From: Singulisphaera sp.
GTDB lineage: Bacteria; Planctomycetota; Planctomycetia; Isosphaerales; Isosphaeraceae
Reading direction: 5' to 3'
Assembly (NCBI GenBank): GCA_027451445.1
Contig: DAIDJG010000361.1
Span: 62,001 to 126,000 of the forward strand
DNA length: 64,000 nucleotides
The notes under the pieces are model-generated. The model worked only from the letters and a program-made list of their open reading frames with translations. It did not search any database and was not told where the DNA came from. This document shows, one piece after another, positions 3,470 through 14,009 of this stretch. The first letter of the stretch is position 1. Each line of letters opens with the position of its first letter. The position numbers and the translations under genes were made by a program.

Positions 3470-3490
3470 CGTCAACGGAGACCGAAGGCT

Positions 3491-3566
3491 TTGGAGTGCG
3501 GGGGCTTGCTCCCGCTTTCGAACCGCGACAGCCGTGCGAAAGCGGGAGCAAGCCTCCGCACTCCAA
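3491..3566. repeat. Palindromic dispersed repeat (30-bp arms)
   Basis: The arms at 3491-3520 and 3537-3566 are inverted repeats of 30 bp with one mismatch, separated by a 16-bp loop. The arms read TTGGAGTGCGG and then GGCTTGCTCCCGCTTTCG. The element sits between the divergently transcribed DUF1592-type gene and an ADP-ribosylglycohydrolase gene. It resembles the REP/MITE-like elements scattered through planctomycete genomes. No transposase is nearby. Confidence 0.85.
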
Positions 3567-3692
3567 GGAGCCCTGTCGGGCTCGAAGCCAGCGATCGATA
3601 TCCCGTATAGCTTGTCAAAGCCGACAAGACCCGTCGAGAGCAGACCGCCCCTCAGTCGCGAATCGCCCTGGGATCGGATAGCATCCGACATC

Positions 3693-4841
3693 ATGACCAC
3701 CCCTCACGACCACAACACGCGGCTCCAGCGTGCCGTTCTCTCTCTGGAAGGCCTCGCCCTCGGCGATGCCTTCGGCGGTCGGTTCACTTACCGAGATACC
3801 GCCGGACGCCACCTACCGCCGCCGATCTGGTACTTTTCGGACGACACGGTGATGGCGCTGGGGGTTGTGGCCATTCTGAGTCGCCACACACGGATCGAAA
3901 CCGAACCGCTCGCGCGACTCTTCGCCGCGAATTTCCAGGCCGATCCGTATCGAGGGTACGGCCAATCGGTTCGCCGCGTGCTCGACCGGATCGCGGAGGG
4001 CGTCCCGTGGTCCGTTGCCGCACGCGAGTCCTTCGGTGGCACTGGGTCGATGGGCAACGGAGGCGCGATGCGCGTCGCTCCGCTCGGCGCCTACTATGCC
4101 GACGACCTCAGCACATTAGTCGAACAGGCACGAGCTTCGGCCGAGGTGACGCACGCCCATCCCGAAGGGCAAGCCGGCGCGATCGCCACGGCGCTCGCGG
4201 CAGCGTGGGCCTGGAACCACCGCAGTGAAACATCGCCGCAATTCGGACGGGTCACAACACAGGCGGTAGTGCCTCCCGAACCCCTCACCCCGCCGCTGCG
4301 CGGCGACCCTCTCCCGCAAGGGGAGAGGGATGTTTTCCCGTCAGAGAGCGGCGAAAACAAAAGTCACACCTCTCCCCTTGTGGGAGAGGTCGGCCCTCTA
4401 CGAGGGCCGGGTGAGGGGTGCGGGCGCGACCTTTCGCGGACGGGTGGTGTCGATACCAGTACGCGTTCTGGCCAGGACCTGCTCGCCTTCGTCGTGGAGC
4501 ACACGCCCCTGAGCGAGACCCGAACGGGCATCGAAAAGGCGCTCGCGCTGGGGCCAGACCGTTCCATCGTGGAGGCGACCACAACGCTTGGCAACGGCAG
4601 CCGGATCACCGCGCCGGACACGGTCCCCTTCGCGCTTTGGTGCGCAGCGCGGCATATCGACGACTACTCTGAGGCCCTCTGGTCAACGGTGGAAGCGGGG
4701 GGCGACAACGACACCAACTGCGCGATCGTCGGCGGGATCGTCATTCTGGCGAACGGCCGCGAATCGATCCCCACCGAATGGTTCGAGGCCGCCGAAATGC
4801 TCCCGATCGGATCACCAGCGGGAAATCCGGACCGGCCTTGA
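3693..4841 (+). CDS. ADP-ribosylglycohydrolase family protein with in-frame repeat insertion
   Basis: This 382-residue protein belongs to the ADP-ribosylglycohydrolase (DraG/ARH-like) family, whose members remove ADP-ribose from proteins or small molecules using a binuclear Mg site. Family motifs are in order: LEGLALGDAFGGRF at the start, YFSDDTVMALGV (metal-binding DDT), GSMGNGGAMRVAPLG, EVTHAHPEGQAGA and, near the C-terminus, AGGDNDTNCAIVGGIV (second metal-binding set). The ATG at 3693 is chosen because the core fold begins right after it; the open frame upstream runs through the palindromic repeat. Residues about 197-242 are unlike the family and are encoded by a 138-bp palindromic element (4282-4419) that keeps the frame. 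All visible metal ligands remain, so the enzyme may still work. A paralogue without the insertion lies at 13233-14009. Confidence 0.9.
   Translation: MTTPHDHNTRLQRAVLSLEGLALGDAFGGRFTYRDTAGRHLPPPIWYFSDDTVMALGVVAILSRHTRIETEPLARLFAANFQADPYRGYGQSVRRVLDRIAEGVPWSVAARESFGGTGSMGNGGAMRVAPLGAYYADDLSTLVEQARASAEVTHAHPEGQAGAIATALAAAWAWNHRSETSPQFGRVTTQAVVPPEPLTPPLRGDPLPQGERDVFPSESGENKSHTSPLVGEVGPLRGPGEGCGRDLSRTGGVDTSTRSGQDLLAFVVEHTPLSETRTGIEKALALGPDRSIVEATTTLGNGSRITAPDTVPFALWCAARHIDDYSEALWSTVEAGGDNDTNCAIVGGIVILANGRESIPTEWFEAAEMLPIGSPAGNPDRP
4282..4419. repeat. 138-bp palindromic repeat inserted in frame in a coding sequence
   Basis: The left arm (4282-4329) starts CCCCTCACCC and ends CAAGGGGAGAGG. The right arm (4370-4419) starts CCTCTCCCCTTG and ends GGGTGAGGGG. 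Outer and inner parts of the arms pair well and the middle has diverged. The length is exactly 46 codons and the frame stays open, so the ADP-ribosylglycohydrolase gene reads through it. The pattern matches the common REP-like elements of GC-rich bacteria. Confidence 0.85.
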
Positions 4842-13232: not shown

Positions 13233-14009
13233 ATGCTCGGCGCCATCGCCGGCGATATCATCGGTTCGGTTTACGAGCGCCGGCCCATCAAGACGACGCG
13301 GTTTCCGCTGTTTCATCCGCTCTGTCGGTTCACTGACGACAGCGTGCTGACCGTTGCGCTGGCGGATAGTCTGATGAACGCAGTCCCGTACACGGATCTG
13401 CTCAAGCAGTATTACCGGGCTTATCCGAACGCAGGTTACGGCGGCGCGTTCCATCAATGGGCGCAGTCGAAAAGCGCGGCTCCGTACAACAGTTGGGGGA
13501 ACGGCTCGGCGATGCGTGTCAGTCCGGTTGGTTTTGCATTCGACACGCTCGAAGCCGTACTGGACCAGGCCGAGCGAAGTGCGGAGGTGACGCACGACCA
13601 TCCAGAGGGAATCAAGGGTGCTCAGGCGATCGCCTCGGGGGTATTTTTAGCCAGGACGGGAAACAGCAAAGACCAGATCAAGAGTTTTGTCGAGACGCGG
13701 TTCCACTATTCGCTAGACACGCCCCTGGATGAGATTCGTCCTCGATACGAATTTCACGTGTCGTGTCAGAAGTCCGTCCCGCAGGCAATACGAGCGTTTC
13801 TGGAATCGGACGACTATGAGGATGCAGTGCGGAAGGCGGTCTCGCTGGGAGGCGATAGCGATACGTTGGCCTGCATGGCGGGCGGAATCGCCCAGGCTTA
13901 CTACGGAGGGGTCCCCGACGAAATCGCACGGAAGGTTTACGAACTCCTCGACGAGCCTTTGGGCGCCTTGAACCGGAGATTCTCGGAAGCTTTCGGCTGT
14001 TTGGGATGA
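13233..14009 (+). CDS. ADP-ribosylglycohydrolase family protein
   Basis: This 258-residue protein carries the complete ADP-ribosylglycohydrolase fold. Motifs in order are MLGAIAGDIIGSVYE at the N-terminus, RFTDDSVLTVALAD (metal ligands), SWGNGSAMRVSPVG, AEVTHDHPEGIKGAQA and SLGGDSDTLACMAGGIAQA (second metal-binding set). A strong GAGGGAGGAGG ribosome binding site precedes the ATG at 13233, which settles the start. The short length and the YERRPIKTTRFPLF segment are typical of the compact bacterial subgroup. It is divergent from the suyA operon, with 249 bp between them, and converges on a hypothetical gene. The first ADP-ribosylglycohydrolase of the window lies about 9 kb upstream, on the far side of the sulfatase genes. 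The substrate is unknown. Confidence 0.92.
   Translation: MLGAIAGDIIGSVYERRPIKTTRFPLFHPLCRFTDDSVLTVALADSLMNAVPYTDLLKQYYRAYPNAGYGGAFHQWAQSKSAAPYNSWGNGSAMRVSPVGFAFDTLEAVLDQAERSAEVTHDHPEGIKGAQAIASGVFLARTGNSKDQIKSFVETRFHYSLDTPLDEIRPRYEFHVSCQKSVPQAIRAFLESDDYEDAVRKAVSLGGDSDTLACMAGGIAQAYYGGVPDEIARKVYELLDEPLGALNRRFSEAFGCLG

Follow-up and report, generated by a model that had tools for sequence, protein, structure and literature searches.

Palindromic repeats that code for protein are known mainly from Rickettsia, where the Rickettsia palindromic elements (RPE; Ogata et al. 2000, 2002) are described, in the accounts given by PMC10969869 and PMC3733652, as inserting in frame into unrelated genes. Palindromes within genes are also known among the repetitive extragenic palindromes with GTAG or CGTC tags (intragenic REPs), whose authors suggest that flexible linkers or loops can tolerate them; GTAG REPs are linked to RAYT transposases (PMC3733652). 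In Escherichia coli, a G/C-rich intrastrand triplex motif (TM/TMECO) was found to be always intergenic and unassociated with mobile elements, and such motifs were linked to local instability (Holder et al. 2015, PMC4666352). No coding palindromes of a comparable kind in planctomycetes were found in the literature searched, which is not proof of their absence. Here we describe one in a Singulisphaera sp. contig (DAIDJG010000361.1), of which a stretch of 64,000 nucleotides, the window, was analysed; gene content and the best named homologues likewise point to a planctomycete-like organism.

The palindromic insert and its host gene

The first-pass annotation of this DNA had reported a 138-bp palindrome (4282–4419) in frame in an ADP-ribosylglycohydrolase gene and exactly 46 codons long. 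The palindrome itself, its frame and the absence of any stop codon stood. The region folds at −114 kcal/mol, compared with −67.7±4.8 kcal/mol for shuffled sequences (z=−9.7; none of 200 shuffles was as stable), and contains nested inverted repeats (4275–4294 with 4405–4424, and 4308–4328 with 4369–4389). The size had to be revised. In an alignment of 28 genomic copies the consensus was exactly 216 bp long, so the 138 bp (46 codons) describe only the most conserved core of a unit of 216–225 bp (Table 1), and comparison with 48 homologues puts the insertion at about 75 codons.

Table 1. Features of the ADP-ribosylglycohydrolase gene and its insert (window coordinates)
Feature	Position	Strand	Details and basis
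ADP-ribosylglycohydrolase (ARH3/DraG-type) gene, carrier of the insertion	3693..4841	+	382 aa; Pfam PF03747, E 5.7e-54; AlphaFold
Palindromic element, 216 bp, coding for residues ~185–257	4246..4461	+	Aligned to the 27 remaining full-length copies
Left flank of 9 bp, perhaps a decayed target duplication (CGCAATTCG)	4237..4245	+	5/9 matches to right flank CGCGTTCTG
Right flank of 9 bp, perhaps a decayed target duplication (CGCGTTCTG)	4462..4470	+	Genome-wide flank-pair comparison
Terminal inverted repeat at the left end, much decayed (consensus CATTGGTATCTACACAAC)	4246..4263	+	Copy alignment
Right terminal inverted repeat, recognisable, ends GTGTCGATACCAGTA (consensus GTTGTGTCGATACCAATG)	4444..4461	+	Copy alignment
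Left palindromic half, triplex-motif-like, ACCCCTCACCCCGCCGC..GGGGAGAGGG	4280..4329	+	Comparison with PMC4666352 motif
Variable internal loop	4330..4366	+	Identity to consensus 0.69 (window copy), arms 0.98
Right palindromic half, triplex-motif-like, CACCTCTCCCC..GGGTGAGGGGT	4367..4419	+	Near-invariant across 28 copies

The match between the two 9-bp flanks of the window copy is not significant for a single copy. Because its left terminal repeat and target duplication have decayed, the insertion footprint of this copy is unclean. A different GC-rich palindromic repeat (GGGGGCTTGCTCCCGCTTTCG..CGAAAGCGGGAGCAAGCCTCC; 3488–3569) lies directly upstream of the gene, and a related copy of it sits after a transposase gene elsewhere in the genome (C40).

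The host gene shows the features of an intact family member, and the earlier statement that its motifs are undamaged was borne out. The Pfam ADP_ribosyl_GH match flanks the insert on both sides, the family-invariant residues, including D50/D51 and GNGxAMR, are kept together with the near-invariant D338/D340, and G+C content varies by codon position in the manner of coding DNA on either side of the insert. As had been noted, the ADP-ribosylglycohydrolase paralogue at 13233 lacks the insert, which, as this is a distant relative (35%), is weak evidence taken alone. The protein was aligned with 48 homologues, among them sequences of Planctomycetes, Streptomyces, Chloroflexi, Firmicutes and Bacteroidetes, a comparison that the first-pass annotation had proposed. 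Between the helix end AAAW and the motif GQDLL, the window protein has 87 residues and 47 of the 48 homologues have 6–13 (mode 12); the remaining homologue is cut short at the insert site. The closest orthologue (61–66% identical) reads WASRRQGG-SGRDLLA, with no extra residues. The 46 residues do not recur as a conserved domain in distant orthologues, extra residues being present in 0 of the 48 homologues. The difference of 75 residues (87−12) corresponds to 225 bp and agrees with 216+9 bp.

In the AlphaFold model, pLDDT is 85.5 overall, mostly 95–99 outside the insert and 38–73 inside it, where the low values partly reflect the absence of aligned sequence. The insert is modelled as a loop between helices 157–175 and 260–270, and the best PDB matches of the model are ARH3 structures. 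The model thus predicts that the enzyme fold is retained despite the insert. The 75 added residues probably form a floppy or disordered loop, and the enzyme is probably still working.

A repeat family with common ends and its copies in other genes

A genome search, likewise proposed earlier, placed the element at no fewer than 41 sites in the 10.9-Mb draft genome, a lower bound because 40 of 184 candidates were scored. About 30 copies are near full length, with roughly 80–90% identity. When copies were aligned with their flanks, similarity extended well past the palindrome to the ends CATTGGTATC(T/G)ACACAAC and GTTGTGTCGATACCAATG; the end pattern CATTGGTATC..GATACCAATG occurred at 50 sites, compared with six for a reversed-pattern control. 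The family consensus has terminal inverted repeats (CATTGGTATCtACACAAC/GTTGTGTcGATACCAATG), of which the left is the one decayed in the window. The 9-bp flank pairs matched at a mean of 4.5 of 9 positions, compared with 2.97±0.24 for shuffled pairs (0 of 5000 reached the observed mean), and were perfect duplications at three loci (L007, L010 and L014). Since the family duplicates 9 bp of target, one insertion adds 225 bp. Terminal repeats, target duplications at the family level, many copies, a size within the MITE range (about 70–300 bp) and no transposase of its own are all features of MITEs, and from these sequence features we conclude that the ends and 9-bp duplications were left by a transposable element resembling MITEs.

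No autonomous partner with the element's ends was found in the draft genome, its nine DDE_Tnp_1 matches included. Among these nine, the start of one transposase remnant (C468) is 12 nt beyond a CATTGGTATC end; the remnant's near-full-length relative (C40), 92% identical over the common part, has no such end on its readable side. A search of 44 other genomes of the bacterial family did not find the encoded peptide, so the element family is lineage-specific at this sampling; shorter matches, to half of the element, are present in some relatives.

Two further observations concern the structure and sites of the family. A 214-bp element (C600, L138:1438–1651) has the same terminal repeats and a different palindromic core, which suggests mosaic elements with common ends. 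Some copies lie within or adjoin another triplex-motif-like hairpin (L007, around 1463–1697; L287 on C468, next to 1738), with CCCTCTCCCCTTGTTGG preceding the element at L007 and CCCTCTCCCACAAGG preceding the end sequence on C468, hinting that hairpin loops may be preferred targets.

Judging from the composition of their flanks, although this is not shown copy by copy, the other copies seem to be located mostly between coding frames. Three of the 28 full copies are set within long frames whose composition is of the coding type to either side of the element, namely those in the ADP-ribosylglycohydrolase gene, in a PKS-like gene (C462), between the acyltransferase and phosphopantetheine domains, and in a gene for an FHA-domain protein (C48). 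The element is thus inserted in frame in unrelated genes, as are RPEs. In a genome of the same genus (G001), the PKS orthologue aligns as two touching blocks (30291 and 30290) with query residues 497–583 missing; this is an empty site whose flanks are directly adjacent. The FHA orthologue in G001 also lacks the insert. These sequences point to at least three in-frame MITE-like palindromic insertions in the genome, and the two further cases lend support to the first-pass suggestion of a source of new protein segments. A possible fourth case is C177 (L131:1–380), where, at the edge of a contig, a type I PKS gene has the element next to another repeat (REGEAPSEPA); it was left out of the count because only one flank is available. 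A second high-copy palindrome family (about 40 copies in the scored set) is also represented in the FHA gene, by a member that is likewise in frame (L133:3357–3479), and the gene holds two short palindromes rich in GC, CCCCCCCTT..AAGGGGGGG (L133:4080–4136 and 4218–4283).

Each of the three in-gene copies is exactly 216 bp with zero indels and is read in the same element frame (+2). Indel-free copies make up 7 of 28 overall, and the absence of indels in the in-gene copies is partly ascertainment since these were chosen for open frames. From open-frame counts we estimate that one common frame would arise by chance in about 5% of cases, which is only suggestive. Three of the six frames of the consensus are open, compared with a chance of about 18% for each frame of a shuffled sequence; to read this as an adaptation for frame neutrality is not convincing, because the frames of a palindrome are not independent. 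The window insert carries 39 substitutions from the consensus without a stop or frameshift. In each of the three copies, the three codon positions carry similar numbers of substitutions (12/15/12, 15/20/17 and 17/20/17), and this lack of third-position bias gives no sign of selection on the encoded peptide. The reading frame was kept, with no trace of a selected peptide.

The arms are 83–99% identical to the consensus, with most copies at 0.95 or more, and the flanks and loop mostly at 0.4–0.87. A search for conserved RNA structure gave no support (covariation term 0.23; no compensatory covariation), and Rfam matches to known RNA families were sub-threshold only. On the alignment, the conservation is of sequence and not of RNA structure. 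This points to homogenisation of the arms or to a constraint at the sequence level, and is the least explained feature of the family.

Origin and fate of the insert

Very probably, the ADP-ribosylglycohydrolase gene received, within the codons for a surface loop, a non-autonomous MITE-like element 216 bp long, which was kept in frame. The two triplex-motif-like palindromic halves of the element are inverted relative to each other and lie between terminal inverted repeats, with target duplications of 9 bp; a transposase acting in trans would move it. Insertion of the element (216+9=225 bp) would add 75 residues, probably disordered; the gene would have stayed open because 225 is a multiple of 3 and frame +2 of the element is free of stops. 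The insert would then be translated and neutrally tolerated in the loop. The insertion, its frame, the membership of the element in a family, the target duplications of that family, the absence in homologues and the two further in-frame cases directly support this reading. Against it speak the decayed left terminal repeat and target duplication of the window copy, the failure to find an autonomous partner in the draft genome, and the arms, which are far more conserved than the ends and loop, where simple transposition followed by even decay predicts otherwise.

That arm identity, and a right half nearly invariant in 28 copies, are what one would expect if the triplex-motif core alone spreads, or is made uniform among copies through recombination, replication slippage or gene conversion; the terminal repeats would then be left over from an older mobile element, and the window copy would have been reshaped after its arrival. 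The association of E. coli triplex motifs with local instability (PMC4666352) fits such a process. We nevertheless consider it unlikely, since it is clear from the common ends and 9-bp duplications that many copies moved as complete units of 216 bp, and the insert length fits the whole unit. In a broader version of the transposition reading, a transposable element with a pair of triplex-forming motifs as cargo, whose length (216+9 bp) and open frame suit it to read-through, may repeatedly seed new disordered linkers in the proteins of this lineage, with the arms kept near-identical by a homogenising process. We propose this only tentatively.

The first-pass annotation had also raised the possibility of a failing gene, in which the insertion inactivated the gene and the frame is still open only for the time being. 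Seventy-five low-complexity residues inside an enzyme and a very stable mRNA hairpin would agree with this, but the absence of stops and frameshifts despite 39 substitutions, the retained family residues, the coding-type composition on both sides and the intact predicted fold make it very improbable. The exceptional stability of the hairpin could also mean that it goes untranslated, through RNA processing or through ribosome bypass, for which the target duplications could provide matching take-off and landing sequences. An open frame and a multiple-of-3 length in all three in-gene copies would then be needless, and the duplications have decayed in those copies; we give this explanation hardly any weight. 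Finally, a multi-copy repeat in a 622-contig draft could have been misjoined into the gene. This is barely credible given that both gene halves are collinear with the same orthologue, that the repeat is short, and that two independent genes show the same pattern. We conclude that in-frame insertion of a MITE-like element best explains the locus.

Comparison with described palindromic elements

In its in-frame coding behaviour the planctomycete element resembles RPEs as presented in PMC10969869 and PMC3733652. Host and length differ, and the likeness is one of behaviour, with no sequence relation or common descent claimed. Unlike RPEs, the element has terminal repeats and 9-bp target duplications that can be mapped, and only three (perhaps four) of about 30 copies lie in genes. 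For Rickettsia guanylate kinase, an experimental test of the effect of such an insert is cited in PMC2759123 (Abergel et al. 2006). A clear case in a large planctomycete genome suggests that the making of coding palindromes is a more general process, and orthologous empty sites together with target duplications offer a route to studying how mobile repeats become protein segments.

ERIC and RU elements (PMC2759123; PMC10969869) are likewise short mobile repeats that resemble MITEs, contain open reading frames and occasionally give gene fusions; RU elements were described from Enterobacteriaceae, and the likeness is by description. Intragenic REPs share the position within genes. An identity as a RAYT-associated REP was rejected, since REP units are 20–40 bp long with GTAG or CGTC tags, whereas the repeated unit here is 216 bp with 9-bp target duplications.

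The palindromic halves are closest to the E. coli triplex motif, with which they have the core CCCTCTCCC..GGGAGAGGG..GGGTGAGGGG in common, and inverted pairs occur in E. coli too (PMC4666352). Compared by eye with the published motif list, both halves fit CCCTCTCCC-loop-GGGAGAGGG-spacer-GGGTGAGGG, with a hairpin as spacer; in contrast to the E. coli motif, this additional mini-hairpin is predicted to set apart the third strand. A motif reported as intergenic and not linked to mobile elements in E. coli here forms the core of an element with terminal repeats that seems to be mobile, and lies inside coding genes.
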